Shown one piece after another: positions 3,927-59,443 of a DNA stretch of 64,000 nucleotides; positions within the stretch are counted from its first letter, which is position 1, and every line of letters starts with the position of its first letter. The stretch comes from Phialocephala subalpina. Lineage: Eukaryota; Ascomycota; Leotiomycetes; Helotiales; Mollisiaceae. The translations under genes were made by a program, and so were the position numbers. The notes under the pieces are model-generated. The model was not told the DNA's origin, searched no databases, and was given only the letters and a program-made list of their open reading frames with translations. The stretch covers positions 1,444,119 through 1,508,118 of the forward strand of contig FJOG01000015.1 in assembly GCA_900073065.1 (NCBI GenBank). Direction: 5' to 3'.

Positions 3927-4778
3927 TTATTCGAGGTCATCATGAGCAACACATACCACCGCGACATCTTCTGCGCCTTCTTCCACACCGTTCGCCTCGT
4001 TGATATCCCAAGCTTCCCTTAGCCTCTCCGCCCCGACGTCCTCTTCCTCAACCTCCTCGCCGTCCCCGTCGTTGTAGAGAGCGCCCTTATTATAATCCTC
4101 CTCTTTGAACTCGCCGTCTTTACCCCTCAGCTTGACCCTCAGCAACCGATACGCAAACACAAAATCTTCATTTCCCTCCCAGCTTACTCCCTCCTTTCTT
4201 TCCAATTTGCCTTCCACCTTCGGCCCTCCCGACACCGGCACCCCTACCAAAACAACTGTTGCATCAATACCCACCTTCACCGCACTTCCATAATTCATTT
4301 TCTCCTCACTATCCGCGCTCACACCCCTCGCAATCTTTAGCCCCGTGACCAAATACACCGGCTTTCCCCACCATGTCTTCTCCATATAACTCTTCACAGC
4401 CGTGCTCTTCAGACTCGCCGCAATAAATTCATCATCAGGCTGAAAGTATGTTGTTTCAAGATCGTCACACTTGTAAACCCCACTGACATCGTGAGAGCGG
4501 TTCACATCAACATCTGCAGTGATGCCAAGAATCACCTGCAGGAAGCTTGTCCAGACGCCTACTTTAGCTTCTTTGAGTGCGCTGCGCGTACTGGACCATT
4601 TTGTTTGATGTATAGTGTAGATTGAGGGGTTGGGGACGGGCACGAGGGTTGTTTTATTGAGGATGCGTTCGGGAGTGCTGGGTGAGGTGATGATGCTGCC
4701 TAACGCTAACGGGCCTTTCGGTGGTGGGATTAGGTGGAAGTTTGGGGCTAGGAAATAAGTTTTGATTTGATTGCTCAT
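3927..4778 (-). CDS. gasdermin-like pore-forming protein (HET-Q1/RCD-1 type)
   Basis: Single-exon gene of 283 codons. The ATG at 4778-4776 is chosen because the frame upstream offers only a TTG. The N-terminus (YFLAPNFHLIPPPKGPLALG) and the later YLVTGLKIARG and DFVFAYRLLRVKL segments have the layout I associate with fungal gasdermin-like proteins such as Neurospora RCD-1 and Podospora HET-Q1, which insert into membranes and kill the cell. Length fits (about 245-280 in known members). From about residue 222 the protein changes to a strongly acidic tail; in HET-Q1 a short C-terminal segment of this kind keeps the protein inactive until removed by a subtilisin-like protease. A subtilase gene lies 199 bases upstream on the same strand, matching the known pairing. 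Family call rests on pattern and neighbourhood; no alignment was run. Confidence 0.75.
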   Translation of the reverse strand: MSNQIKTYFLAPNFHLIPPPKGPLALGSIITSPSTPERILNKTTLVPVPNPSIYTIHQTKWSSTRSALKEAKVGVWTSFLQVILGITADVDVNRSHDVSGVYKCDDLETTYFQPDDEFIAASLKSTAVKSYMEKTWWGKPVYLVTGLKIARGVSADSEEKMNYGSAVKVGIDATVVLVGVPVSGGPKVEGKLERKEGVSWEGNEDFVFAYRLLRVKLRGKDGEFKEEDYNKGALYNDGDGEEVEEEDVGAERLREAWDINEANGVEEGAEDVAVVCVAHDDLE

Positions 4779-4977
4779 GATGGGCTGCAATTTTGATACT
4801 GGGGAAGTGCAGCGAGAGTTTTGATGCTGTGGTTCCTGTTTTGGTTCAGCTCTTCAGGTGAAGTGTTATTTTTGTGAGGCACTGCAAATCACATGATCAG
4901 TGCCGCATGATAGTTCCTTTGCTTCTGATAGGTCAATGATGGGGAACGATGCTGCATATTGATTTCAGATGTAGCTG

Positions 4978-7900
4978 CTACAAAGCTTTCAGATCTCCGA
5001 GTATAATATCGCAGACAGTTGATCCCTTGTACTTCTTAGTATCCAAGAAGTCCCAAGGGACGACGTAATCATATCCTCCCCTATTCCTCTTCGCCATCTG
5101 CCTGAAAACAGTGCTCATACCAGCAGATGAACGCAATTTTCTCAACATCTCTGCATCATTTTTTGAAAGCTCGCGGTCCCATTGGGGCAATACAAGATTT
5201 ACATATTCCAGCACGATAGCCGCAATTCCAGCTGCAATTGGGGTTGCTGTCGATGTTCCCGACTTTCGAACTTCACCTGCCTGTCTCTTGTGAGGTGGCC
5301 AGCATGATTTCACTGCTTCTCCAAGCACAGCGAAGTTATCATCGCGAGGAGAGTCTGTGGGCGTGAAGTCACATCGGTTGCCGAGGCTGTCGGTGGCATA
5401 GATGCAGATCACTTGGGCAAGTCTCGCAGGCCAGGCAATGTTGTTATTTCCGCCCTCGTTTGAGGCTGCAGCGAGCATGATGACTTTCTTGTCGTCTGCA
5501 AGTCGAATAGCTTCGTCAATAACGTCCACTGATTGCTCAAAGCCGAAAGACATGGAGATGATATCGACCTCCCATTCCTTGACCGCATGCTTGATAGCCT
5601 GCAGGGTTGTCAGTGGCGACAAATATTTTCCAACTGCGAAGGACCTACATCAGCAATACGTTGGTGGATCATTTCTGCCATGACAATTCCCTTACTCTCT
5701 TTCCGGTCTTTAAAAACTCGGGCGATGTAGACATCTGCTTCAGGAGCAACTTGGAGAAGCAATGATGCAGCATGAGTACCATGGCCATCTAGATCTCTGT
5801 CACCTCTATTCAAATGTTCCTTGCAATCCTCATCGTGGCTCAACCAGCTTTTCTGATCTCGTAGTCGGTCCCCGTATGCACATTCTGCTTCTTCGGGGAG
5901 CTCCAATCCAGTATCAAGAATTGCTATTCTTATCCTTCTAGGCCGGACGAATACATTATACCCTGAGAATCGACAGGCCTGGTTTCGGTTTTTTGTATGA
6001 GAGGGTGGACGCGGTCATGCAGGTCGGCAAACCACTTATCAGTGCGTTTTGAACTGTTAGTTGTCAGCATTTTGAGCAGGCCGAGGTAGAGCCACGCTAT
6101 ATACATTTTTTCGCTGACAATGCTGCTCTCTTCACTATCGTCATATAGACACACTTGGTGACTGAGGCCTTTCTCTGCCTGTCCCACTACTACAGATTTG
6201 GATTCCTCCATTACCGGTAAAGTCTTCACATGTGGTGCCACCTGAGCAGGATGGGAGGGCAATTGTCTTCTTTGGGAGCCTGCTCGGTCAGGTAGTGATA
6301 GAGCTGCAGGAGCGAGAGCGTCGAGTTTCTCCACAGACATTCCAAACACCTTCTGAAGAGCATCCTCCAAAGGCTTTACGATCACCTCAAAAATTTGGCG
6401 GCGAAATGCTAGATCATTGAAAGATGCATCTCGACCAAACTCGCCAGTAAAAGTTCTGTCATCGAGGCAGGCTTCAACAGCGTTGATGAAATCGATTGAG
6501 CTGTCATCTCTGCATTTTTCTAGCATTTCCATCGCCACTGGGCGATCCGCATCAATGTGGAAAATTTTACCATTGTTTGGACTGTCGTCTGGCCTGTCAC
6601 ACTCGATTGGTTGACCTAATTCGATTTCTAAGAGCAATATTCCGAGGGCCAATATTCCGGGATATGGGTGAACTCGGAGGTGTGAGTCTTCCTCCTCGCT
6701 ACTGTCATCCAGAGGGCTGCATTGTGTAGAGAGGTATGGCCTCGTCAGATCAGGGATCAGCTGGCTTCTGGCCTGATAGAAGCAAATATGTGCCTTATTC
6801 CACTCTCTTAGCAGCCATGGGCCTTTATAGAAATGCAGGAGGCCGTTTGCCAGCATCACTTGGAGGATACACCTGTCTCGTTTTTTAGCTCGTTCAAATG
6901 GAAATGGTGATTCAAGCTTTAGAAAATCACCCAAACAAACGGGATCTTTTCTTTGGATATTCTCAGTGGCGGATCCAGGGCTTAAATACCACAATTCGTC
7001 GTCCTCAACGAGAAGCTTCAGCTGACAGGAAGTTCGTGCGGCAACTGCTTCGACCAGTTTGCAAATACCCTCAACCCTCCACCGGTCCTCGGACTTGGTC
7101 GAGGCAGGTGGCTGCTCTTTAATAGGGACAGCAAATGTAACACTTTTGGCTTTGGCTGCTGTCGGGGCGGCGGCCAACGATTTGCTTCGGGAAGAAAAGG
7201 GCCGCGTCAGCAAAGAGATAAATCAATGTGTCACCAGATACCATACCTTTTTTGTGGGACAAGACGAACCTCACTTTCCTGCCATTTTGTCGAAATACCA
7301 GAAGTGCTGCAAAACACCATTTCAAATCGAGCTTCACTCTCGTCCTTGCGATGTGTGGCCAGCCGTAACTTTGTTGCGGTGTGAGGACTGTGGCCGTTAC
7401 AGTTCCAGTTTTGGGCGAGAATTTTATAGAGCAAAGTCGCATGATCCCTGATCTGAGAAGAGGGTAAAGCACTTGACACTCTCGTTTGGACAGAGTCTCG
7501 CTCCGGCTTCGCTCGTGGTGTGCTCCTCCGCTGTCTTGGTGCAGCCTTGCGCGCAAGTTGCCCTAGCTCAGTGTTGCACTTGGTCAGCCGACTGACCATG
7601 TGTGTGCGATATTCCTTCCGTTTATCCTCCAGGTGTATCATTCTCTGGAGTTCTTGCACATCCAGGCTCGAATTCGAGTCTTGCGCGGTATCGATTCGGC
7701 ATCGTAGATCTCGCAACCGGGGGTATTTGCTTTTCACAGCAACGGTTCGCTGATAATTCCTTCGATCCTAAGATTCAAGATATTAGAAATAGATCAGAAG
7801 GTATACGGGAAGAAATGGGGGGATTTCTCAGCAAAGTACGAAGAATGAGACTTCTTACTTGAATCTTGACGAAACGACTCTCAAGCACATCCAAAGCCTT

Positions 7901-8131
7901 TGTCAACGTGTGCTCTATCGGACCTGGTATTTCAATTTTATTGTCCCAAACTGACAGAATCTCTTCAAGACCCTTAAACTCCACATGAAGCTTCGTATAG
8001 AAAGGCTCTTTGTCGAGGTTTTGTCGCGTCGATAGTGCAGCCTTGTCGTCTCCGGTAAAGAAGGCTGCGAGTTTCAGATACTCTGGAATGACCGCGGAAA
8101 GAAGCTCCAAGAGATCCTGGCATGGAGCCAT
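4978..8131 (-). CDS. DUF7580-like/subtilisin (S8) protease, HET-Q2 type, frameshifted
   Basis: Four exons: 8131-7859, 7767-7247, 7184-5649 and 5598-4978, with introns of 91, 62 and 50 bases. The first ~650 residues form a helical N-terminus and a region I read as DUF7580 (HTATKLRLA, later HPYPGILALGILLLEIELG), as seen in fungal cell-death proteases. The S8 domain keeps the whole triad: Asp in IAILDTG, His in GHGTHAA, Ser in GTSTATP, and the oxyanion Asn in AAASNEGG. No signal peptide, so it should act inside the cell, as HET-Q2 does on the gasdermin HET-Q1. Anomaly: the frame holding the N-terminal region stops at 5930-5932 while the catalytic frame is shifted; total exon length is one base short of a multiple of three. 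The six-T run at 5989-5994 is the likeliest site. I found no intron that would fix this. Confidence 0.8.
5989..5994 (-). other. probable one-base frameshift site in protease gene
   Basis: A run of six T (A on the coding strand) lies where the frame coding for the DKWFADLHDRVHPLI segment must change to the frame coding for the catalytic Asp motif. One more base here would keep both sides in frame. It may be an assembly or sequencing error in a homopolymer, or a true inactivating mutation. Confidence 0.55.
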
Positions 8132-8408
8132 GGAAGCGAGCGCTCTAAGCTCGAGGAAGAGACCGAGTCTTAAGTGAGTGCGTTTTTATCACGTCCCTGA
8201 ATGTCCGAATTGACGCTACCGACGTGACAGGGGATCCGACGCTAGCCTGAAACGACAACGTGGAGGTTCAGCCGGGGACATCTGCTTACAAATCAAGGAT
8301 TTTCCCGAATCTGTTGCGTTGACATCTTTTCGGGTTTGGAATTGTGAAACCCCACACATCAATAGTCATCGCTGATCATGCTCCGTCCCTCTTGTTGGAG
8401 AAAGGAAG
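8132..8408. promoter_or_regulatory. shared divergent promoter of protease and NLR genes
   Basis: Only 277 bases separate the start codons of the protease (minus strand) and the C2H2-NACHT-ankyrin receptor (plus strand), so both must be driven from this stretch. I see no clear TATA box or known operator. Co-regulation of the two genes is an inference from spacing. Confidence 0.5.
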
Positions 8409-11400
8409 ATGGAGGATCCGACTATCGAAGATATGACGATTGCTGGACATGCGGCTGCTTGCGTTCGAGCGTTCGACCAGTGCCTATCAAGGGATGTAAT
8501 GCCTAGTCATGACAATGGATGGACAGAAGACCAACTGGCGGGATTTAATATCTGGGTGACTAATCTCGGAGTCTTTGCTCATGGCCATGCTTCTGTAGAC
8601 CATCGTCTACGGGATTGCGAGGACATCCGCAACTTGATGTTGCAACTACTGGATGCTTTGCGTGAAAATCTTCTATACAGTAAGTTACGAAGTACCCCAT
8701 GCTAATTAGCTAGAAGTCGAATATATCCCAGATTCACTGACCTCTTCTCTAGCGATGAAGAACGGTACCTACGAACATGGGTCCTCTGGTGATGAAAGTG
8801 AAGCCAGCGAAGATCATTCGCCAACTTCGTCTACATCATCCTTCACCTTTTCTTCTATCTCCTCATCTAAGGATGCAGATGATGAGACGATTCCAGCCAT
8901 AATTCTGGAGGCCCGCACTGAGGTGCAGGATGCGATCAGCAGACTGAATAGATTATCAACTTCTATCAGAAATTCTGGCCTCCATTACCGAGATTTGAAA
9001 GCCGCCACTTTCGTTGATAGAGACGAGGACGATGACTGGACTGCATTCTATGCACGTTTATCAACCTTGGTTGTGAACCATAAGTTTCCTGACGCAAACG
9101 AAGTACTTCGTCTGCGTGCGGCCAAGTCACTTGCTCAACGACGTAATCAGCTTGCATACCGCCGCAGGCACCAACAGAAATTGGCAAGAAAATATACGAA
9201 CGATCGTCCACTATTTGGGGGTTTCCAACAAGAAGGCAAGATATCGTTAGAGGCTCCCAAAACAAGTCCCGAGCAAAAGATCCAAGCGCCTGAGCCACTC
9301 AACATCAAGCAGCACGTGATGTCGAACACTTCAGCTTCCATACTTGATCCCAGGCGGTTTGTGAATCGGCCAAGGTCTACAACATCCAAAGCCCCATCAA
9401 CGGTTATGCTTGGAACCCCCTCCCAAGTAGCCGCATTGAATTTCCCCCCAGAGCCCAAATTGGAACGAGTAGACTTCTTCGAGTGTCCTTATTGTTTCAT
9501 TTTATGTCCTGCTAAAGAATCCCGAGGCAAACATTGGCAGTGAGTGACTCGGTGGACGCAATTTCCAACTCTCTATTTTCTTTTGGAGTTTCGCTCTGAC
9601 TTTAGATTTTAGGCATCACGTCATGAAAGATCTCGCACCCTACATATGTGTCTTTGAAGAGTGCACAAAACCGCAAGAATGTTTTCAGACCTTCTCGGAG
9701 TGGATTTCCCATATTCAGCTTGAACATGCACCATTACACTGGGACTGCTTTGCACCAGTTCACGACCCAGAGTCGTTTGATAGTCAAGATCTCTACATAG
9801 ACCACATGAGGAGTGCTCATCCAGGCACATTTGCAGACTCGCAGCTGCTTGCACTCGCACAAATGAGCGCCCGTGCTGATTCTCTGTTGTTTGACAAATG
9901 TCCATTTTGCAATAGTCTGCCTCAAGACGTCCCTGGTATCAATCCCGACCAGCTCCCGGATATGTATCAGAATGCGTTACAAAGGCATGTTGCTCAGCAT
10001 CTGCAATCCCTTGCTTTGATGTCTCTTGCTTGGCTGTATAACTCCGAAGATGATGATAATTCCGAAAATGATGATTCCAATACGAGAGACAGCGTCTTCG
10101 GTCGAAGAGACAGCGTCCTTGCTCTCAAGGACCACGAGGAGGGAGCATTGGTCTTTCAAGACCCTCCGGATCTGGGTATAAGAAACGACTCTGATCTGGA
10201 CCCGGATTGGAATTTCGAAGGATGCCTCCAATCTTTATACTTCGATGGAATGAATCAGCAAGAAAGCGACATACAGAAAGAGTGTGAGGGTACCTGTGGG
10301 TGGTTACTTGCACACGAGAAATATCTTGCCTGGAAGGGGGAAAGCTCTGGATTGCTGTGGATCAAGGGGAGTCCTGGAACTGGAAAGTCAACGTTGATGA
10401 AATATGCTTTGGAAAAAGAGAAGCTAAATACGAACTATACCATAGCGTCTTTCTTCTTCCATGGAAGAGGGAACAATCTGCAAAAACAAGCTCTTGGCCT
10501 TTGGCGATCCCTACTACATCAAATCCTCGCCCAGATTCGCCCTTTACTCCTGAAGTTCACGCTCAATTATGAGAAAAACTTGAACGAACGAGGACAACCG
10601 AGAACAGCCTGGTATTGGCATGAAAGGGAGCTGCAAGACTTCTTCGAAGACCATATCGTAAAGCACCACCCAGTCAGGATCTTCATCGACGCTTTGAACG
10701 AATGCGACGAGACAGTTACCAGAGAGCTTGTCAAATACTTCCGAAATTTGGTCAGCAGCGATCAATCTAAACTAAGCATATGTTTCTCCTGCCGTCATTA
10801 TCCTACCTTCGAAGACTATCCCAACTTCACTACGACAATTCGCGTCGAGGAGGAAAACGAACAGGACATCTTAACTTACATCCAGGAGAACCTGGGGCCT
10901 ACATTTGCAGATGACCAGGAGAATTTTGATGCTCTCCAAAACGAAATATCGAGCAAAGCTTCCGGTTGCTTCCAATGGGTCAATCTTCTGGTTCAAGCTG
11001 AAACTGAGCTTTATTCAAATGGGAGCTCTATGAAGGAAATCCGGGCCGAGTTCTTGGAGGCACCAGTCAAGCTAATGGACCTCTATCGGACCGCTCTAGA
11101 CTTGGTTAGCCATCGAGATCGACCAAAAGCCGTGCATCTAATGCAATGGCTATACTTGGCCGCAAGACCTCTATCGTTGACAGAACTGCGCTATGCGATG
11201 GCTTCTGACTGGTCTAATGTTTCTAAACAACCTTATCAGACTCATCAAGAACTAGAGGATTCTAATGACTACGAGGTTGAGCAAATGGAAAAGTTGGTGA
11301 GGAATTTATCGGGCGGCCTTGCCGAGATCGTTTCTCAAGAAGACGAACGAATTGTGCAGCTGATTCATGAATCAGTTCGTGACTTTCTGGTTCAGGACGG

Positions 11401-12280
11401 CCTACGGATTCTTTCCGGCTCTAATGACAACTTACTCCTTCAAGGCCATTATCGACTTGCAAGGGCTTGCCTTAATTATGCCACCTTGGACGACATCTGC
11501 GACAGGATCAGGGCTAACCAGATCCAGCAGCTCCCTTTCCTAAAATACGCCGTGACGTACTGGGGTTTTCACGCAGAAAAAGCAGGGCTTAATGCAGTTT
11601 CCCAAAATGATCTTCCGGCACCATTCTGGTTGCCTTCTGACGTCATGTTGCAGCGATGGATTCATGCGTACAGACTCATCGATAATGAGCCAGCAACCCT
11701 CGTCCATTACTCCTCAGAACATGGTCTCCAGGACGCTATTAGGCTGCTTCTCGGGGAGGATGTCGATGTTGACTCTGAAGACAAAGAAGGCCAAACACCG
11801 CTATTACTTGCCGCAAGAAACGGGCATACAGCAGTAGTAGAGCTATTACTCGAGAGAGTCGCCAAGCCAGATTGCAAGAACAAGCGCGGTCAGACCCCAC
11901 TGATATATGCTGCGCGAAATGGGCACGAGGAAGTAGTGGAGTTACTGCTGGGCACAAACAATGTCGATGCCAATTCTAGAAATCAATCCGGTCAGACGGC
12001 TTTATGGTATGCAGCAAGGAACGGACACGATGGTGTAGTAAAGTTGCTACTCGAAAGGGACATCATTATAGATTCAAGAGATAATGATGGCCAAACACCA
12101 TTATCGTGGGCTGCAAATAATGGGCACGAGAGACTTGTAAAGCTACTACTTGAAAGGAAGGCCGATGCAAGCTCTAGGGACGCATTTGGTCGAACACCGC
12201 TTTGGTATGCTGCGGAAAACGGGTACAAAGAGGTGGTGAAATTACTGCTGGAGGCAGGTACTGGAATCAACGCTACATAA
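8409..12280 (+). CDS. C2H2 zinc finger-NACHT-ankyrin STAND receptor (NLR-like)
   Basis: Three exons, 8409-8679, 8753-9539 and 9613-12280, give 1241 residues. Order: a helical N-terminal domain (1-90); a serine-rich, low-complexity linker; C2H2-like fingers at roughly 330-490 (CPYCFILCP with a later HWQHHV, and CVFEEC, CPFC); a NACHT ATPase with P-loop GSPGTGKST near residue 606 and Walker B IFIDALNECDE; and ankyrin repeats from about residue 1060 (GQTPLLLAARNGHTAVVELL and five more). Such STAND proteins detect non-self or effector signals and trigger cell death in fungi. It is transcribed divergently from the subtilase, suggesting it could control the protease-gasdermin pair. The frame ends at TAA 12278-12280 in mid-repeat; further ankyrin codons follow in another frame (see 12282-12521), so this C-terminus looks shortened. 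Confidence 0.85.
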
Positions 12281-12281
12281 G

Positions 12282-12521
12282 GGGGTAGTAAAGCTACTAT
12301 TCAGTAAGAACATCGACATAGATGCCAAGGATAACGAAGGAAAGACACCATTATCGTGGGCTGTAACTGAGGGGATGGAGAAAGTAGTAAAAGAACTACT
12401 TGAAGGGAACGCTGACTTGGAGTGCAGGGATGATCTCGGCAATACACCGTTGGCTTATGCTGCAGACGGAATGTTAGCGTTATTACTTGAGAAGCATCTC
12501 AACCTCAAGGATGAGCCATGA
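12282..12521 (+). pseudogene. out-of-frame ankyrin repeat remnant of the NLR gene
   Basis: Directly after the receptor's stop codon about 78 codons in another frame code for two and a half more ankyrin repeats (GKTPLSWAVTEGMEKVV, GNTPLAYAA), ending with TGA at 12519-12521. Comparing with the preceding repeats, the junction lacks most of one repeat's first half, so a deletion with frame loss best explains it. Confidence 0.7.
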
Positions 12522-24357: not shown

Positions 24358-25065
24358 TTAACGCAGTAGCTTGATGACGGCCTCGTGCCCGTTCCGAGCA
24401 GCTATCGATAGCGGCGTCTGACCCCACTCATCCTTCGAGTCGACCTCGACCTGGCCAGTCTCGAGCAGCAGCTTGACGACGGCCTCGTGCCCGTTCTCAG
24501 CAGCTATCGATAGCGGCGTCTGACTATCCTTATCCTTCGAGTCGACCTCGACCTGGCCAGTCTCGAGCAGCAGCTTGACGACGGCCTCATGCCCGTTCTC
24601 AGCAGCTATCAATAGCGGCGTCTGATCCCACTCATCCTTCGAGTCGACCTCGACCTGGCCAGTCTCGAGCAGCAGTTTGACGACGGCCTCGTGCCCGTTC
24701 TCAGCAGCTATCGATAGCGGCGTCCGACTATCCTTATCCTTCGAGTCGACCTCGACTTGGCTAGTCTCGAGCAGCAGCTTGACGATGGCCTCATGCCCGT
24801 TCTCAGCGGCTATCCATAGCGGCGTCCGACCCCCCATATCCTTCAGGTCGACCTCGACCTGGCTAGTCTCGAGCAGCAGTTTGACGACGGCCTCGTGCCC
24901 GTTCTCAGCAGCTATCCGTAGCGGCGTTTGACCCCACTCATCCTTCGAGTCGACCTCGACCTGGCCAGTCTCGACCAGCAGCTCGACGACGGCCTCATGC
25001 CCGTTCTCAGCAGCTATCCACAGCGGCGTCTGACCCCACTCATCCTTCGAGTCGACCTCGATCAA
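24358..25065 (-). repeat. tandem 102-base ankyrin-coding repeats
   Basis: Seven consecutive units with high nucleotide identity; the final unit is truncated by the stop codon after KLLR. Phrases such as CTCGTGCCCGTTCTCAGCAG recur in nearly every unit on the plus strand. Such units can expand, shrink or exchange by recombination. Confidence 0.85.
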
Positions 25066-27274
25066 AGACTCTTTACAGTCGACCGTTAATAGCATTCTTG
25101 ACAACAAAACCAGCCCGAACCTCGCTGAAAGATGAAGCCCTGTGGTAGCTTGCGGAAATCTTTGGCTATATCCTTGGTACTTGTAATCTCCCATCGATAT
25201 AATCTGGGTGCTACATAATACCAAGGCATCATCTTGAAGGAATGCGAGCGCTAGCTCAGATACCGTCGCTTCTACCGGACGTACATGCTCCGCCCAATGC
25301 CGTGCTGCGTAATCTAGAAAGATACTCTTCCCTACTCTCTCCTCAAAATCTTCGTCGCTACGGCAGCTGCCAGATCGAAACGTATCAAATGCTAGGTAGG
25401 TTAAACAGATCGACGCTATCTCTTCCAGAGCGCCAGGATTCCACTCCAAGCGGATGCTCTCAAAGTATTCCTGCGTTGTGTAGTGCACAAGGCGGATGAC
25501 GTTGCTCTCCTCGTCAACCGTTACAAGGCCGGCGCATACAGAGATAATGTCTTCCACGTCGTAAAAGTTGTCATCGTTTAGGGCTCTATCGCCTGGCACG
25601 ATAGCTAGCGCGTGGCAGAGCTCTTGTGTGATAAGTGGTCTCTGTGCATAAGATATCCAGGAAATAGTGCGTCTGGCAAGTGATCGGTCCTCAGCCAACT
25701 GCCCATCTATTCTCTCGATCGCGTCGCTATAAGCCTTGTCAAGTGTAGCTGTCCCATTGGATAGCTTCTCCAGTGTGGATAGCACTTTCTGCTTTGTTCT
25801 TTTGTCTAGAAACGAGTCGACGTAGAGGCGCGCAAGGAGGAACCTAACAGTATTGTAAGCTAGGTACCTTAATGCAAACATGCAAGAAGCAACCTACATG
25901 CCATCAATAGCTTTAACAATCTTACTCTGTACCGCCCTCGTTAGCTCATCGTCGCGTCTAATGCATCTCGGTAGACGTGGTATCTGGCCTGCCACAAATC
26001 GCTTCACGTCCTCTTCACTAGCTCGGACTTCCAGCACGGGATCCGAACGGAATTTCTCCGTTATTTCGGGGATGAGGCGGGAAGTGAACAGAAGCCATAC
26101 GTTTGTCCCCATCTGGAGTTCGCGAAGTTTTTCGATAAGTTGACTTCGAGTACTATCTTGATCCGTGCATTCGTCAAGCGCATCCATAACAATATATACT
26201 CTAGCGTGGTTCGAGCAGACAGTCAATAAAGCAGTAAATATTTCGTCTAGGGATGGCCTGCTTTTTTGCTTCGAGTGGTGATCATAGAGACGCGTTACCG
26301 GGATTGCAATGTCTGCCCGGCTCTGCACTAGCTGCTTCAAGAGAGCGCTCAGAAGACTATATAAGTTCTGATCAACTTGGGACTTGTAGTTGCAGAACAC
26401 GTATGCCAACCCAACGTCTGCTTGTGCCAATGTGCCGAGATGGTTAATAGCAATAGCCGCCATCATCGTCTTACCAGCTCCAGGTATTCCAGGACAGAAT
26501 AATGTTTTATGAGCTCCCTGCAGCCACCCCTTAAACTCTGGAGAGTCTAGAAGCCATTGTCCGGTGCCTTCCTGCCTGCGACAGATGATATCATGTTGTT
26601 GGGCTGGGAAGTCTGTAGGCGATAACCAGTCTAGGATAACCTGAAGCTGCTGGAGCTGCTGGCCGGCCCATTGCAGGTGTTGTGTATCTCGAATGGTAAG
26701 AACGTCGGTTTGTAAATTCGGTAGAGCATCGCGTAAAAAAGTGGTGTCAGCTTTGATTGCCTGGTCTGCATTTTGGAGGATCTGTAAGTGTGCTTTGATC
26801 GCTTCGGATAGTTTGCTTGATCATGTTAGCGATCCAGAATTAATATTCTTAGGGAAGGACTCACAAGTGATCCATCTCGAGCGCGATGTTCACGAGGCTT
26901 TTCAGCCGCTCTATTCTTGCCAGGATGCTTATAACTTCTTCCTTTCTGAACTTCCATAACAGTCGCCTCTTAACCTTCTGTACGCCATCTTGAATCTCCA
27001 CCTGTGACAGCAACTGCTCGAGGGCCTGTTTGTACTGGTCAAGAGGTCCATTTTCAATATTTAGAGCCCGAACCGCTGTGAACCAAGGATGGTCAGCCTG
27101 TCCCTGTTCGAGGCGATAACGAAGATTTATCAGGAGGTTTTGGATGTTAGATGCCTCGATCGTGCATTGCTGGCATTCTTTCGGAGCGTCCTTGACGTTG
27201 TTCAGATATCCGATCACTTCGCCTGTCAGCTGGAGCACGGCGATGATGCTAGCAGCAGCGCTAAGCCCGTCCAT
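24358..27274 (-). CDS. HeLo-like-N/NACHT/ankyrin STAND receptor
   Basis: Three exons (27274-26865, 26815-25898, 25843-24358; introns 49 and 54 bases) give 937 residues. The N-terminus (MDGLSAAASIIAVLQLTGEV) fits the fungal STAND N-terminal domain Helo_like_N, thought to execute membrane-directed death. The NACHT ATPase has P-loop GIPGAGKT and Walker B VYIVMDALDEC; a winged-helix-like part and VIRLVHYTTQEYF follow. The C-terminus is a run of seven ankyrin repeats of 34 residues (102 bases), nearly identical to each other (IAAENGHEAVVKLLLET in most), from about 25065 down to 24358. Differences cluster at the four residues before TPL and the one after it. Near-identical repeats of this sort in fungal NLRs are linked to rapid specificity change. 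The gene is intact and sits between inverted repeats. Confidence 0.88.
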
Positions 27275-33534: not shown

Positions 33535-36313
33535 ATGCTTTTTCTATACGCTGTACTTGGGCTGATTGCCGTTGTATCTGGTGCATTGTTCAATGCCAGT
33601 AATGCTGCTGCTCTTCAAAAGGCCTACATCATTCAACTCTCCCCTCAAGGCGAACCAGAATCGCCCAAAAGATCTACAGAACATCTGAACCAATTCCACA
33701 GGAGAGCATTGAGTCTCGACTACTCGGTTCGACACGAATTCTCGAATGCGGATGTCTTTCTTGGTATATCCATTCAAGTCAACGGGGACATTACTGAGGA
33801 AGAAGCCTTGACACAGCTCCACGACATCCCAGGAGTGATTTCAGTCTCCAGTATTTACAACGTCAGTGTTTCAGTTCAACCAGGAATACCGCGACCAGAC
33901 ACTTCTACATCTTCCAATCTAGAATCACAGCCTCCGGTCATTGTCTCCGGAAATGGGAATCTCGCCTCGTCACTTGAAATGGGAGGTGTGGACAAGCTAC
34001 ATCAACTTGGTATCAAAGGGAAAGGAATCAAGATTGGTGTGATTGATACTGGTGTCGATTATCGGCATCCTGCTCTAGGTGGTGGGTTTGGACCTGGTCA
34101 CAAGATTGCTGGCGGCTACTCGTTTGTGCTGGACAATGGAACTCTCAGGAACACTCCCAATCCCCTTGCCACCTGCTACGGAGGAGGTCACGGCACCCAT
34201 GTGTCGGGTGAGTTCAGTCCGTCTCTGTTGAGGTAAAGCTGACTTTTCAGGAATCATTGGCATGGACAGTGTCCAAGATGGATTTGACATTGTTGGAGTT
34301 GCTCCAGAAGCCAGCATCTTCATGTACCGGGTTTTCGACTGCGCTGGCCATGCTGGAAGCGATACCATCATGGCGGCAATGTCAAAAGCAGCGGATGATG
34401 GCGTCGACCTCGTTAGTATGTCGCTTGGGATCGGCCTAGCATCTTTTAGCGGCGCATTGGATCCGTTGGCTGCCGTGACCCAGATGCTTACCGATCACGG
34501 GATTGCTGTGATCGTTGCGCAAGCGAATGACGCGAATGGAAGCATGACCACGCCTGAGCTCTACACAGAGGAATGGCCGAGCACAGAACCAACATCGATC
34601 AGTGTGGGCGCCATATCCAACACCCACTTCCCTCTTGTCTACTCTGCGACGGACTCTGTCGGCGCTCCCATTCAATATGCATCGGTGTATCCTTTGGACT
34701 TTCTAAATGGTGCTGATGTCTACATTATCAATGATGGATGCAGTTCTACGGCATGGACAGATGCTCTAGCAGCGATCAAGAATGTCAGTCAGACCATCAT
34801 CGCTTTCGGAGTTACAACTGGATGTCAAGCGACCTCTGCAGGCAGCTGGAATTCTGCGACCGTCGAGCCTGCACACATCATGGCATTGAATTCGGATACT
34901 TCTAATCCTTACCTTGCGGAGTACGATACTCCAAGTCAAGGATTCTTTGGTGCGACCCAATTCATCAACCTCAACGTCCCTGATGGGTCGATACTTAAGA
35001 AGAACTTTGCAGCTGCTGGAGGCTATCTGAAGTACAAACTCTTTTTCAACAACAAGAACTTCACTAGTGTTGCGCAGAAAAGCGGTGGGATGGTTGACTA
35101 CTACTCGAGCTTTGGTCCTACGTGGCACGAGTATGATCTGAAGCCTCAAATATCTGCTCCGGGAGGCCATGTTCTCTCGACTTGGCCATTGGGACCTCTG
35201 GGAGGGTATGCGATCTTGTCTGGGACGTCTATGGCAACTCCGTATTTGGCAGGATGCTTCGCTCTCGTCAAGTCTCAGTTTCCAACGGCTTCGATTGCGG
35301 AGATCAGAGCTAGACTACAGGTCAATGCTGAACCGGTTCCGTGGGTTTTCAACAAGTCGATGCTTTCAGCAACCGTTCAACAAGGCGCTGGACTTGTCAA
35401 TGTATACGACGCAATCTTTGCAGATACCAAAATCTCTCCTGGCCAACTCAAGGTTTCCGATGTCAGTAAAACGGCGTATGGTCTTGTCAACATCACCGTC
35501 GAGAATACTTCACCAAATTCAAAGACTTATTCAATGTCCCACCAAGGGGCAGGATATATGGACTACTATATACCCAGCGGCAAGAAAAATCAGGAGCCGA
35601 TGTTTGGCACGACCCACTTTCCCACACCGAGTTTGACAGTACCAGCGGGGACTTCGATCAATGTTCAATTCTCGATCATTCCTCCTCAAGGTGTCGTCCC
35701 ATCGAATCTTCCGGTCTTTGGTGGGTTCATCAAAGTCAGCGACAGCGATGGAAAGTCATTCTCAGTTCCATATGCCGGTCCACCGTATTCACTTTACAAC
35801 ACCCCGTATCTCCTCGTCCAGAATGCTTCCCAAGGAACACAGCTCCCGGAAGTCTACGCCTACAATGCCGATCAATCCCAAGTCACGTACGATACTGGCC
35901 TCCTCGAGATCAACGCCACGAATGGGTACGGTGCTTCGATTCCGACCCTGCAATGGACGCGCTCCTTCCGAGTTGATGTCTTGCCAGCCAATACGAACAT
36001 CACAGCAAATTACTACGGATTTGATACAATAGTAAAGAATGATTACCAACCGAGCAGAAGCGTCCCCTCAGATTCGATCTTTGGATATCCCTCGTTCGGC
36101 ACGGTGGTGAATTCTTCAGGATTCATCTGGCCAGGAGGTAGTTCACCTTTTGAATTGGATGATACGGTGATGCGAAGCAATGGCTCGAAGTACAGTGTTG
36201 GGAATGGAGATTATAGATGGTTTGCGAGCGTTTTGAGAGAGGGTGGGAGTCATGGCGTTCAGGAAGATCATGATACTTGGTTGGGTCCTGTCATGCGGTT
36301 CGTTGGTTCGTGA
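33535..36313 (+). CDS. secreted subtilisin-like protease (S8, with I9 propeptide)
   Basis: Two exons (33535-34207, 34251-36313; intron 43 bases) give 911 residues. Start chosen at 33535 because MLFLYAVLGLIAVVSGA forms a signal peptide. An I9-type inhibitor propeptide follows (AYIIQLSPQG to PGVISVSSI). The S8 triad is complete: Asp in GVIDTGVDYRHP, His in GGHGTHVSG, Ser in LSGTSMATPYLAG; the oxyanion Asn is probably in AQANDANG. A PA-like insert lies between His and Ser (about residues 360-460), and a beta-rich C-terminal third resembles the Fn3-like modules of large subtilases. Role: extracellular protein digestion. It is of a different kind from the intracellular subtilase at 4978-8131: it has a signal peptide and no DUF7580 region. 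Confidence 0.9.
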
Positions 36314-45500: not shown

Positions 45501-48500
45501 CTATCCATGATATTCCTCCAGCATTCTACTCAAGGCAAGATGTCCGTTTCTCCTTGCGATGTACAAAGCACGCTCATATTGCTCCTGCCCCGCACCATGA
45601 ACCCTTGCGCCAGAATTGAGCAGCATTCGCACCATGTCAATCCTGCCGTGTTCTGCTGCTCCTTCCAATGCTGTCCTTCCGTCGTCTTCAGCGCGAGGAG
45701 CGTTGACATTCGCGCCGTTCTCGAGGAGTGCGAATGCGATGCCGAGGTAGCCGCGGATCGCTGCGTATTGGAGCGCAGTCGCTCCGCATTCCTTCGCCGG
45801 TGCAGCGTTGACGTCTGCTCCGTATTCGAGGAGGAGGTCGACTACGTCTTTGTGTCCGTCCCTACATGCTATTTGAAGAGCAGTATGTGATGCATTATTT
45901 GTGATAGTATCGCGCTTGGCCTTGTGCTGAAGAGGTCGGAACATCTTAGCATTTCCAGAGTTCGTTGCCTCCTGAACCGGGGCTCCCCTACCTCCATGAG
46001 GCGATACCGCCTCTGGATCTGCGCCATGATCTAGAAGTACTCGCACCATTTCAGGGGTGCTATAACGGATGGCTTGTTGCAAGGGAGGCCCACATCGCGG
46101 CCAAAAGAATTCGTCAAAGTTGCTTTTTAGCGCTGCGTTTGTAATATCTATAGCGCCGCGAGAATTTTCCGGCAGCGTTGTATACAGATCAGCCATGCAT
46201 CGCGGATATGCATTGACATCTACCACATCGCTTGCAAGAAGGATTTCAACCATCGCCACATCGTTCGTTGCTATTTCGATATCGAGCGCAAGTCTTCCAA
46301 AATTTGCCCCATGCGGAAGGATCCAATGAGTCTTGATCTTAGCAAGAAGAAGCTGAAGCATTGTCGTATCCTCTGCTGCGGTCCTGAGAGCCAGCGGATG
46401 CCAAGGATATGCTCCAGAGTCGAGCAGCAAGCGTACCCAAGATTCGTTTCTTCTCTCATACCGAAGAGCAGCCGTAAGTGGTGTTGTATTCATGAGGATT
46501 TCGGGAGGATTCTCGACAGCAGCTCCTTTGGAAAGAAGGCATTTGACACAAGGCCAATCTTGCATCTCAAGAGCTATCGTGAGTGGCAATCTGCACCCAG
46601 ATCCTTTGAATCTTTTGCTCTGCCCATGTTCATTGACCTTTGCCCCTCGTTCTATGAGAATATTGACGATTGCGGGATCAGAGAGTCCGACGGCGCAGAC
46701 CAGCGGATTTCCAGATATTTTATGCGGTGCATATCGGCAGTCATTATAGTGGTTCTTAGTGCAGCCCAATTCTGGATTCAAGTCTGCGCCAGCGTTCAAA
46801 AGCATCTCCACAAGGACATAATTTTGAGCTTCGATTGCAAGAATCAAAGCTGTGGTATTTGTAGCTGATCTGATATTGACATCTGCATTGGCTGAAATGA
46901 GCATTTTGGTAAGCTTTACATTCCGATTTCTGACTGCAGCCAACAAGGCAGTTTCGAATTCGAGTTTGTCAGAGGTTGCGTTAACGTCTGCACCGGCAGA
47001 CAATAATGTCCCAACAAGTTCATAGACATCATACTGGTACATATATCGTCCGCTGCCATTGAAAGATCTTGACGATACTGCAGCATGAATCGAACCTCCG
47101 AGCATTTGTGAAAGTGATAGGCCGTACACCAAGGCTTTGTCTATGACGTGGCGAATCATATCAATATGACAGGACCGGCAGCAATCCTCACAAGCTGTAA
47201 CAAGATCAGTGCCACCGTTAAGCCAAATCGAATCGTTTGCCCCGTTTGTATCGATCTCTTCAAGCATGGATAGGTTTCCGCATTTTATTGCCGCAAACAT
47301 GATGAGCTTTCTGGTTTCGGTATCATTGTGACGTCTGAGAAGTAGCTTGATAGTCGGCCACCAAGCTATATTCGACTGCGCTTTTCGAATAGCAGCATGA
47401 ATGACTTTCCTTGAAGCTGGGAAACCTGCGTTACACAGATATACAAGAGATTTGGGACATTGCGTAGCAACTGCGCAAGACCAAGAATGCTCCGTTACAC
47501 AAACGCCTGCAGATAAAAGCAATTTAATCACCTCAGGCGTTCCAGAGAGAATTGCAAGATCAAAAACCGAGAACTGTGATCGGTACAGAAACGATGAGTC
47601 GCTGTCTGTTTTATCGACACAATGATCGGTTCTGTAGAGTGCAGAATATTTCGGGTCTGATCCTGCATCAAGAAGGCTGCGAATTACATCAACCAGCCTT
47701 GATGCTTGGAAGCAGCCAGGATACGTATCGTTCCGTTCAAACATTGTCTTGGGTGTTTTCGTGTATTTGACGTCATCAAACATCTGTTCCGAGCTGTAAA
47801 GACATTCTTGTAAAGCCGAATAGCCACCAAGACTTGGGAGATTCACATTTGCCCCTTCCTTGATTAGAACGTCTACAACAGCTTTCAGCCGATACTTTGC
47901 TGCAGCAGTAAGTGGCGAATGTCCCTCCGCGAGAAAAAACCGTGCCGAATGATCTGTACCAAGTTGAGCTTGAAGGTTGACATCGCATCCGGCGGCAATC
48001 AGAGCCATAATCAAGTCAACAAGCAAGCTGACAAGACCATTTTCAATTCGGCTCTGATCAGGAAATTCGCTTTCTCCTACATAGACCCTTCCGTTGAGCT
48101 TTATGCTATCGATGGCTGTACTTGACAGCAAGTCTCTGCTCCCAGGCGATTTGTAGAGTTCATAAGCACCGCAAATGGCTAACACCAACGCGCTACTCTT
48201 CCATCCACCTCCAGGCTGGTCAGTCCTAGATCCGGCCTTGATCAATTCTCTAACCAGTGCAAGGTTGCGGGTAATGCAAGCGAATTGCATCGGGGTTAAA
48301 GTGTCTGAAATCGTCCGGATCCTACAGATATGGCCGTTCGGATTTAGCCCCGCGTCGAGGAAATGCTTGACAATCGGTACGTCCTCGGCTTCAACCGCAG
48401 AACGAAATAGTTTCTCGACAACTGCTTCAGCAGTGGGGCCTTTCATGGATACCATGCCACGTAAGACATGAGCAGTGCCGTGACCCTTGAGCCATCTGTA

Positions 48501-49374
48501 GATCGTCTCAGAGTTGGCCTCGCCGGGGAAGTTGTTCGAAGCCAAATAGACCGTGAGATTGAACAACACAGGCCTCTTGAGGTCTTCCGCTGATGTCGCA
48601 GCAAGACCAGAAGCGGCTGTTTCGTCTAGCAGGGCGGAATTCGGCAAGAGCGATTCGACGATAGGAAAAACCCGGCTGCCACGGGCCTTTTTAAGGAATT
48701 GGGCGAGAGAGGGTTCATGAGAGTCGACAAGGGCAGGAGTTTCAGAAAATTCTGCAGCACATTATTACTCTGCATCACGCCATCGATTCACAAAAGAATG
48801 ACAAGCAAGACTTACGACTAAGTGATTGCTGCTGAAACTTCAAAATGGGTAGGTTGTTAAACATCCAATGGATTGTTGATTGTTCGGATGGCGTGCAAAC
48901 AATGAAGCCAGGGGGTGTCCGAGGGGAGGGCGCTCCAACATGTCAGTCAAACGAGAATGATTCTAGGCAGCCTTCATGGAGCCGAACCTTGTGCTTGCTC
49001 CAATTTCTGCACGGTCGATACTGGATGTCTCGATATCTCCTTTCGCAATTTCTTTCTTGGCATCAATTGACCATCGAGATAAACATCACTTTCTCTGCCC
49101 TTTCTCTTTCGGTTCTCGACTTTTTGGCCCACAATCTCCCAGTCCTGACTGGTGTGATTTTTACGACTGCCACATTTCTCAAGCAGCTTCTCGTATTGTG
49201 CTTTCCTAGTCTAAGTTAGCGGCGTGTTATTGTATTCCGGATATGAGGCAGAGAAACTCACGTCGCAGTGAATCCGTGACGCTCCTTCATCAATCTCATC
49301 ACAACCTCCAACGTGTTGTTTGGGGCTAGAAATCTTATCTGGTTCAAGCGCTGAGAATCAATGGATTGAGACAT
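45501..49374 (-). CDS. Clr5-domain ankyrin-repeat protein
   Basis: Four exons on the minus strand: 49374-49262, 49205-48988, 48932-48816 and 48751-45501 (introns 56, 55 and 64 bases) sum to 1233 codons. The N-terminus (TLEVVMRLMKERHGFTAT, KAQYEKLLEKCGSRKN) fits the Clr5 domain, a small helical domain common at the start of fungal proteins. A basic linker (RKRKGRESD) and a proline-rich bridge (APSPRTPPGFIVCTPSEQ) lead into about 1,050 residues of ankyrin repeats, many diverged, ending with a regular set (HTALQIACRDGHKDVVDLL, GATALQYAAIRGYLGIAF). The second donor is GTTCGG, weaker than usual, but the frame continues perfectly across it. Partners and role unknown; ankyrin arrays bind proteins. 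Splitting it into separate genes would be an annotation error. Confidence 0.8.
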
Positions 49375-57920: not shown

Positions 57921-59443
57921 TCATCCTTTAACCTCCATGGAAGTCTGGAAACCGTTTGTATCTAGTGATTCCGGAGAGTTTTTCGTTGGCTCCGCTACAA
58001 ACGTTTCGAATAAGAAATAGAGAAACAAATCAACGTCGCCCATTGTGCTCATAGCTCCCAAGCTGGCTCTTACTACACCTATTGGCTTCCCACGGAAAGG
58101 TGTAGAATTGCCGCAGTTGCATCCGGCAGCCCACGCACGCTTGAACTGCCAGGGCTTAATGTCAAGAGAGCTAGCAATTCCACCAGGGTTACAAAGTCCA
58201 CCAGATCGGAGATAAATGCCCTTTTCGCTTGCTAACTTCTCCACCTGTGAGTGCTCGACGTAAGTGCCGTCGGCTGTCATGACACTAAAGGCTATGGTTG
58301 CCCCTTGAGTTGTCGGATCAGAGTAGGGGTTTTTCCCTGGAACACTATCGTGATAGATTGCACAAAGTGGGCGACCATTCGAATAGGAAAGCTTTGAAAG
58401 GCCAACGTATAGACGTTGTACGAGAAATGATGTGTGCTGGGAGACTGTTTTCATAGATCCATAGAGCCTTTTGTGGTCGCTAATTGCACAGCCTAAAGCC
58501 ATAATGCTGTGGAATGGCAGCGTCCCATCTTCGAGTCCATCGTGTATCGTAGCATCCTTCCGTTTGACTGTCGGTTCGTGAAGTACTGTCAACATATCGA
58601 CAGTCCCACCACCAAAGTACTTTCTCCAGGATAGGATATAGCTCGATTGCTTGCGTACAATCAGCGCTCCTAGGTCCGGAAAGCCAAAGATCTTATAAAA
58701 TGCCACTACTGTAAAGTCTGGGGCAAATTCTGGATCACTGAAGTCTAACTGAGCAGTGGTCGCCAGGGCTGCAGCGTCAAGGAGTGAATACGTATCTTGG
58801 TGGAAAGACTGACGGAGCTGGCGTGTCCACGAGAACGGCAATCGTCGTCCTGTCATGTTCGATTGTCCTGGATATGCGAAAAGTCCCGGAATTCCACTAG
58901 CATTTGATAGTGTTTTAGGCGACTCGCGTCCTTGTAGCCAGTTTTCGACTTCCTCATCACTACTGAAGCAATGAGAACTTCCTTCCGCATACTCTCGTAC
59001 TCCTACCAAGCTAGTGTGCGAATCTTTGTGATAGCCATACCAAAAGGTTTTAGCAACTGAGCTGGCCAAAGCGAGATCTCGAAAGCTCTCTGCAACAAGC
59101 TTGATAGCAGCCGTGGTGTTGGCTGTGAAAACAAGTTCAAAATGCTCCGGATCGGCTCCGAGAAATTGTAACGCCTCTTCTCTCACTGCGTCTACCATGT
59201 GGCCTGACAATTTGGCTGGATAAGATCCGGAATGGGGATTCCCATACAAATTGGCGACCATCTTTGCAGAAAACTGTTCGACTAGTGTTTTCGAGTATAC
59301 AGTAGTCCCAGCATGGTCCAAGTATACGTTTCCTGCTGGCAGTCATCAGTAATTGAACATACTATCAAGATAAAGAGGCACAGACCCTTCATCATAGGAT
59401 ATTCATTATCGCGAAATACTTCCACAGAATTATTATACGCCAT
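57921..59443 (-). CDS. NifS-like PLP enzyme, molybdenum cofactor sulfurase N-domain
   Basis: Two exons (59443-59386, 59332-57921; intron 53 bases, GTCTGT donor, CAGCAG acceptor) give 489 residues. YLDHAGTTVYS at the start, ANTTAAIKLVAESF, VVAFYKIFGFPDLGALIV with the PLP-binding lysine, and RSGGLCNPGG with the likely persulfide cysteine match the aminotransferase-class-V domain of eukaryotic MoCo sulfurases. These enzymes take sulfur from cysteine and add it to the molybdenum cofactor of xanthine dehydrogenase and aldehyde oxidase. Full MoCo sulfurases are roughly 800 residues with a C-terminal MOSC domain; none is present here and the DNA downstream is AT-rich. So this is either a single-domain paralogue or a truncated gene. 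Reading frame intact. Confidence 0.85.

Follow-up and report, generated by a model that had tools for sequence, protein, structure and literature searches.

The stretch of DNA considered here, 64,000 nucleotides from the helotialean ascomycete Phialocephala subalpina (C39:1444119-1508118, with C numbers denoting contigs of its own genome; hereafter the window), carries three neighbouring genes: a gasdermin-like pore former, a subtilase of the S8 family joined to a DUF7580 domain, and a gene that combines C2H2 fingers with a NACHT domain and ankyrin repeats. All three were located where an initial annotation had placed them, and the 277 bases that it gave between the divergent start codons of the second and third genes (8132..8408, from the gene models) were likewise recovered. 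Comparison within the genome and with related fungi suggests that the trio is one copy of a recurrent unit in which two genes and the front half of the third are kept and the back half of the third is exchanged.

The gasdermin gene (3927..4778, minus strand) is a single open reading frame (ORF) of 283 amino acids, and the identity proposed for its product was supported by phmmer matches to solved structures in the PDB, namely the HET-Q1 pore 9uv9 (E=8e-9 over residues 20-213) and the RCD-1 structures (8jyz), with E=9.3e-8 for RCD-1-2 and E=1.4e-7 for RCD-1-1. A Pfam scan of the product matched no family; a search for relatives returned 88 proteins at E<=0.001 from 2023 candidates, the protein itself counted. 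The motif K-G-A-L-Y ends at residue 235 and is followed by a 48-residue acidic tail containing 19 D/E and 2 K/R. Among the relatives of at least 230 aa, 61 of 80 had a motif of this type past residue 180, and all 62 C-terminal tails counted were net acidic. HET-Q1, according to the accessible part of its description, is cleaved at F238 with the loss of 40 residues (PMC10989679), and K-G-A-L-Y235 is the predicted cleavage site of the protein here, whose capacity to form pores and kill is likewise predicted from homology. The gap to the protease gene is about 200 bases (4778 vs 4978), where Q2L proteases are defined by a gasdermin gene within 10 kb.

The protease gene, PAC_10213 (4978..8131, minus strand), has exons at about 8131-7859, 7767-7247, 7184-~6000, ~5930-5649 and 5598-4978, and a spliced model read from 8131 to 4978 corresponded to PAC_10213 at 97% identity over 100%. 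In Pfam, its 970-aa product scored E=1.2e-47 for DUF7580 and E=3e-21 for Peptidase_S8, which, with the match to PAC_10213, upheld the earlier claim of an S8 neighbour for the gasdermin. Most of the DUF7580 domain lies in an open frame at 5933..7222 (minus), and the S8 domain, spread over two exons at 5056..5936 (minus), has its DTG, GHGTH, SNEGG and GTSTATP motifs; the S8 assignment was supported by profile matches to subtilisins and by a subtilisin fold in the orthologue P0090, the S8 domain taking up that fold search. In one detail the gene departs from the earlier description: just before the S8 domain two overlapping frames are open around 5930-6014 (minus), either an apparent frame break or an unusual intron of 38 nt, by which PAC_10213 bridges the region that its orthologues read straight through.

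The third gene, PAC_10214 (8409..12521, plus strand), with exons at 8409-8679, 8753-9539 and 9613-12280, was 100% identical to our model over the 900 residues compared. Its proposed start at 8409 held, and the ankyrin ORF stops at 12280, so that the proposed end at 12521 depends on one more intron, of about 60 nt, as modelled in PAC_10214. The front half (8409..10250, plus), which is the part similar to relatives in other fungi, comprises an N-terminal helical domain and the C2H2 fingers, the C2H2 region being a domain match at 9469..10036 (plus) that spans one intron. The half that differs among relatives contains the NACHT domain with its following region (10346..11224, plus; Pfam NPHP3_N, E=4.9e-32) and the ankyrin repeats (11675..12280, plus; E=2.7e-59), as well as GSPGTGKST and IFIDALNE, which we take to be Walker motifs. 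Since exon 3 is one open frame covering C2H2, NACHT and ankyrin regions, the fusion is real at the DNA level. The 19 Pfam domains that the accessible text of PMC9815663 gives as N-terminal modules of fungal NOD-like receptors (NLRs) do not include C2H2. The C2H2/helical domain gave a weak HeLo-like fold match; the HeLo Pfam families found nothing in the N-terminal segments of P0147 and P0148 at a limit of E=10 (with filters that drop most matches above 0.1), and no HeLo Pfam match was obtained for the N-terminus of the C2H2 or of the DUF7580 protein. Homotypic coupling through homology of C2H2 and DUF7580 proteins was rejected as well, the profile comparison returning a probability of 0.2 and nothing found.

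A census of the P. subalpina genome, in which all locus counts are lower bounds, located the C2H2 region at 26 loci (27 matches, two further queries adding none) and DUF7580 at 33 loci (36 matches, with one locus, on C63, below the Pfam cut-off). Twenty pairs lay within 5 kb of each other, involving 20 of the 26 C2H2 loci and 20 of the 33 DUF7580 loci, and the order was head-to-head in every one. Uniform placement would be expected to yield 0.13 pairs, and in none of 20,000 random placements did the number pass four, against the 20 observed. Together with the locus tags in relatives described below, the census ruled out chance adjacency of the third gene, whose linkage the initial annotation had taken to be meaningful. 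Gasdermins were found by two queries at 12 loci, and at nine of these (the window copy on C39, and C55, C14, C8, C6, C51, C90, C87 and C45) the gasdermin belongs to a unit with a DUF7580-S8 gene and a divergent C2H2 gene. At the other three (C39:1399942, C47:8468 and C15:128485) the gasdermin lies beside an S8 match, with neither DUF7580 nor C2H2. The gasdermin P0077 (PAC_10194), at C39:1396522-1404941 and some 44 kb ahead of the window, is flanked by an S8 match and, on its other side, by a NACHT match, and the census placed no DUF7580 or C2H2 match near it.

All 12 DUF7580 loci with a detected S8 domain were paired with a C2H2 locus, as were eight of the 21 without one (Fisher p=5e-4). Ten of these S8 domains came from a single genome search and two (C8 and C90) only from reading the fetched loci, and the other DUF7580 loci were judged by that genome search alone, so that missed S8 domains could weaken this difference. 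Three of the 12 DUF7580-S8 loci (C119, C46 and C64) were without a detected gasdermin. The gasdermin is in tandem with the S8 gene in four units and not in five, with the C2H2/DUF7580 order constant throughout. In the six other units in which both points could be placed, 0.42-0.67 kb separate the first C2H2 match from the likely start of DUF7580. Stops interrupt the gasdermin, DUF7580 and C2H2 matches of the C8 and C90 units, and a single stop the gasdermin match of C87.

The NLR of the initial annotation, the NACHT-ankyrin half of the third gene, was not supported as the conserved partner: relatives and the eight other gasdermin/S8 units have other back halves or no recognised one. Back halves were read in 13 units (the window and 12 others), with C64 known through the NACHT search only; the paired loci beyond this reading are the second C55 locus, C119, C47, C115, C46 and C82. 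C39 has NACHT, a winged helix and ankyrin repeats; C68 has DUF7779-TPR with NB-ARC, as does C31, with an NB-ARC score there below cut-off; C6, C87 and C45 have a protein kinase, and C73 weakly so, below cut-off; and C51 has ankyrin repeats only. No recognised back-half domain was present in the scanned ORFs of C14, C55, C90 and C96, and the C2H2 C-termini of C14 and C55 gave nothing usable against the PDB. A 591-aa ORF beyond the C96 C2H2 gene was rejected as a back half, as it is similar to Snf5 and seems to be a gene of its own. One open frame joins C2H2 and module in C39, C31, C6, C51 and partly C8; where the two lie in neighbouring ORFs they probably belong together. The C2H2 partner on C8 (C8:421434-422979) carries an S8 domain in interrupted frames, and S8 is so found on both arms of the pair. 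NLR-type partners occur in C39, C31, C68 and, by the NACHT search, C64, and the window copy is the only one among the nine gasdermin units. The NACHT part itself had at least 122 matches in the genome (134 of 171 candidates scored), the best being 47% identical (C51:3564795), and among the matches listed only C64:1230749 has another C2H2 locus within 5 kb. A further NACHT match (C31:612587-613449, plus) lies about 5 kb beyond the C31 DUF7580 gene on the same strand.

Several DUF7580 proteins without detected S8 (C96, C31, C47, C68 and C73) start with a GFEVVGVVLG..PLVI-type hydrophobic helix that is reminiscent of HeLo/MLKL-like domains, though with no Pfam match. Among S8-bearing proteins, the N-termini were less hydrophobic in the readable cases C39, C6, C51 and C87. 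A clean division by S8 was rejected, the S8-bearing C55 and C64 both having hydrophobic candidates; since these two break it, and since the remaining DUF7580 starts could not be placed in a comparison that covers the readable cases, the division is confined below to the wider reading of the pair.

DNA similarity between the units is nearly gone, with short matches in 7 of 78 unit pairs, and median protein identity across units was 31% for C2H2, 23% for DUF7580, 38% for S8 and 26% for gasdermin. Distances between units, with those dropped whose matches were too short (so that the C2H2-DUF7580 comparison took in 11 of the 13 units, without C8 and C68), were correlated most strongly for C2H2 and DUF7580 (r=0.74, p=2e-4), and this is the strongest coupling among the parts; it was r=0.65 without the two interrupted units and r=0.86 within the gasdermin units alone. 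S8 and gasdermin (r=0.61, p=0.009, nine units) are suggested as a second couple, and only suggested, because the samples are small and the segments incomplete. The remaining values were r=0.45 (p=0.008) for C2H2-gasdermin, or 0.55 without the interrupted units, r=0.24 (p=0.10) for C2H2-S8 and r=0.28 (p=0.07) for DUF7580-gasdermin.

Outside P. subalpina, synteny was judged from locus tags and shared contigs, which do not give gene orientation. The synteny search proposed for the trio found it complete in Cadophora sp. M221, where IFR05_005652 (gasdermin, 60%), _005653 (S8, 57%) and _005654 (C2H2, 52%) share one 71,629-base contig. In Cudoniella acicularis the S8 gene g12760 (59%) adjoins the C2H2 gene g12761 (53%) by locus tag on a 15,118-base contig, and in Leptodontidium sp. 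2 PMI_412 S8 and C2H2 genes share a 355,881-base contig; in Hyaloscypha bicolor and Mollisia scopiformis it is gasdermin and S8 that share a contig. Similarity to the third gene is kept to residue ~490 in the three C2H2 neighbours, and in Cudoniella to ~570 (DPPD...DPDW), beyond which the back half is DUF7025 in Cudoniella and DUF7514 in Cadophora and Leptodontidium. The initial annotation had named absence of the NLR beside all homologous pairs as evidence that would count against it. Such absence is seen for the NACHT-ankyrin half in these three genomes, where neither NACHT nor ankyrin repeats were matched in the annotated C2H2 proteins (the scope here, which excludes the next genes), and is not seen for the gene itself, which all three have. 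The best relatives of the NACHT-ankyrin half, in turn, are about 52% identical and align with that half only. C2H2 was present in none of the four examined, three of them metagenomic proteins, for which gene calling may have missed exons. P0152 and P0155 have a short N-terminal segment in place of the C2H2 front half. The free-standing P0152 begins with a short GNVTNQAGRQTIHGG segment, which we presume could be an amyloid signalling motif.

What these comparisons established, as far as sequences can, was the three-gene makeup, the constant helical/C2H2 front half and the exchangeable back half; on that basis the window trio is probably, though by no means securely, a single instance of a cell-death unit of three genes that recurs in the genome, with an exchangeable sensor, a DUF7580-S8 transducer and a gasdermin executioner. 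The back half is inferred to be the sensor, and control of the protease by the sensor gene is plausible, being the most likely reading, if an unproven one. The back half would sense a trigger, likely non-self or infection, with nucleotide-driven oligomerisation as the probable mode of activation of a NACHT module; the constant front half, once activated, would engage the DUF7580 part of its partner, and this may free or crowd the S8 protease. The protease would then cut the gasdermin just past K-G-A-L-Y235. With the acidic tail of 48 residues removed, the N-terminal domain would form pores in the plasma membrane and kill the hyphal compartment. Several observations weigh against such a unit. 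Gasdermin was undetected at 11 of the 20 C2H2/DUF7580 pairs; Cadophora sp. M221 remains the only complete trio found elsewhere, gasdermin not being found on those Cudoniella or Leptodontidium contigs, nor the C2H2 protein on those of Hyaloscypha or Mollisia in a search that covered proteins of at least ~683 aa. Once the two interrupted units were left out, the S8-gasdermin correlation dropped to r=0.51 (p=0.06), and DUF7580 and S8, though parts of the same gene, were only weakly correlated (r=0.19, p=0.16), reaching at most r=0.30 (p=0.02) with the DUF7580 domain alone and the interrupted units left out. Finally, the window copy has apparent frame breaks before the S8 domain and in the ankyrin array, and because both look interrupted its activity is uncertain. 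That this copy is decaying, with the unit real elsewhere and the protease and receptor here no longer full proteins, is a possibility of which we are doubtful: the orthologues do read through 5930-6014, the ankyrin frame does end at 12280, and stops occur in the C8, C90 and C87 units, but the other exons are open, the S8 motifs are present, intron models exist in PAC_10213 and PAC_10214, and an assembly error is possible.

Other roles for the C2H2 gene would leave the linkage intact and change its meaning. Its product could be a transcription factor acting on the shared intergenic region to set how the divergent pair is expressed, with the back half only modulating it, as might be read from the invariant Cys/His of the fingers, a basic RR..L.YR.RH segment common to three of four proteins, and the short intergenic regions, both here and in the six other units measured. 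We consider this unlikely, as NACHT-ankyrin, NB-ARC/DUF7779-TPR, kinase and ankyrin back halves are typical of cytosolic sensors, and the front half stands in the place of the N-terminal region of NLR relatives. Less likely again is an inhibitor or antidote of DUF7580-S8, which would make the pair a toxin-antidote or incompatibility locus with death ensuing when its members are separated or mismatched. The strict divergent linkage and the co-divergence of C2H2 and DUF7580 would suit such a locus, and a gasdermin-S8 pair does control allorecognition in Podospora, as the accessible text of two papers has it (PMC12881547, PMC10989679); yet six of the 26 C2H2 and 13 of the 33 DUF7580 loci have no detected partner, and varied receptor-like back halves suit sensing better than simple inhibition. 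It is very improbable that the linkage is a relic of one anciently duplicated block of neighbours without joint function. A single ancestral block could have given rise to all units, but the head-to-head order persisted in all 20 pairs while DNA similarity between units all but vanished and median protein identities came down to 23-38%, and it held while the orientation of the gasdermin flipped repeatedly.

A wider form of the sensor-transducer-executioner reading, which we advance only tentatively, is that the C2H2/DUF7580 head-to-head pair serves fungi as a general immune chassis on which sensors and killers can both be swapped, so that a single coupling module leads to either pyroptosis-like or necroptosis-like death. 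The C2H2 arm would then offer NACHT-ankyrin, NB-ARC-TPR, kinase, ankyrin, DUF7514 or DUF7025 as sensors, and the DUF7580 arm would kill through S8 and gasdermin or, where both are absent, perhaps through its own hydrophobic N-terminal helix.

Elsewhere in the window lie a region that weakly matches the C-terminal domain of NO VEIN, below its cut-off (1403-1813, plus; E=0.001), a second NACHT-ankyrin gene whose NACHT and ankyrin ORFs are in frame with one stop codon between them (24361-26820, minus), a subtilase distinct from the DUF7580-S8 type and bearing an Fn3-like domain (34232-36310, plus), a 1086-aa ORF whose C-terminal part has ankyrin repeats (45504-48761, minus), and a class V aminotransferase gene (57924-59342, minus).

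The gasdermin-S8 pair is already known in kind. According to the available portions of three papers (PMC10197012, PMC12881547, PMC10989679), about 80% of fungal gasdermin genes cluster with protease genes, 60-63% with S8, and some Q2L proteases are NLRs that carry an S8 or CHAT domain, while others are fused to repeats or kinase-like domains; a three-gene example, the PP-amyloid cluster of Chaetomium globosum, appears in the accessible part of PMC12881547. What is, provisionally, new is a divergent C2H2 partner whose back half is exchangeable: no description of such a partner was found in the accessible portions of the literature on fungal gasdermin clusters, a literature search found nothing on DUF7580 or on divergently transcribed fungal gasdermin genes, and the word gasdermin was not found in the available part of PMC12258605. 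A review of 2025, in the part of it that was accessible (PMC12881547), leaves to future work the control of the fungal proteases that activate gasdermins. A constant coupling gene beside all 12 detected DUF7580-S8 genes is a concrete candidate for that control, and the units form a naturally replicated set usable for testing it.

As in HET-Q1/HET-Q2 of Podospora anserina and the Q2L two-gene clusters, the gasdermin here sits beside an S8 gene and has a short C-terminal tail, likely cut near its start; unlike the 388-aa protease HET-Q2 (PMC10989679, accessible text), the protease is a 970-aa protein with DUF7580, and it has a divergent C2H2 partner, here and at every other DUF7580-S8 gene detected in the genome. 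Fungal NLRs with N-terminal S8 or CHAT domains beside gasdermins similarly tie NLR-type sensing to a gasdermin protease, whereas NLR and protease are here encoded by two divergent genes, with the NLR part only one back half among several. In the NWD2/HET-S and PNT1/HELLP pairs, too, an NLR gene lies beside an effector gene and is coupled to it by an N-terminal module, with an amyloid motif in place of the C2H2/helical module and a HeLo pore former in place of protease and gasdermin. In plant head-to-head NLR pairs such as RPS4/RRS1, two divergent immune genes share a promoter and the sensor arm varies; the divergent pairing and the variable arm are alike, whereas the proteins are unrelated and the NLR module, in the units read, is on the C2H2 arm only. 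Bacterial gasdermin-protease operons and the animal inflammasome-caspase-gasdermin system have the same sensor-protease-gasdermin logic, with a subtilase here instead of a caspase and a divergent fungal gene unit, which would make the trio a fungal counterpart of both inflammasome and paired-receptor logic, with the swapping of its sensors readable from the genome.

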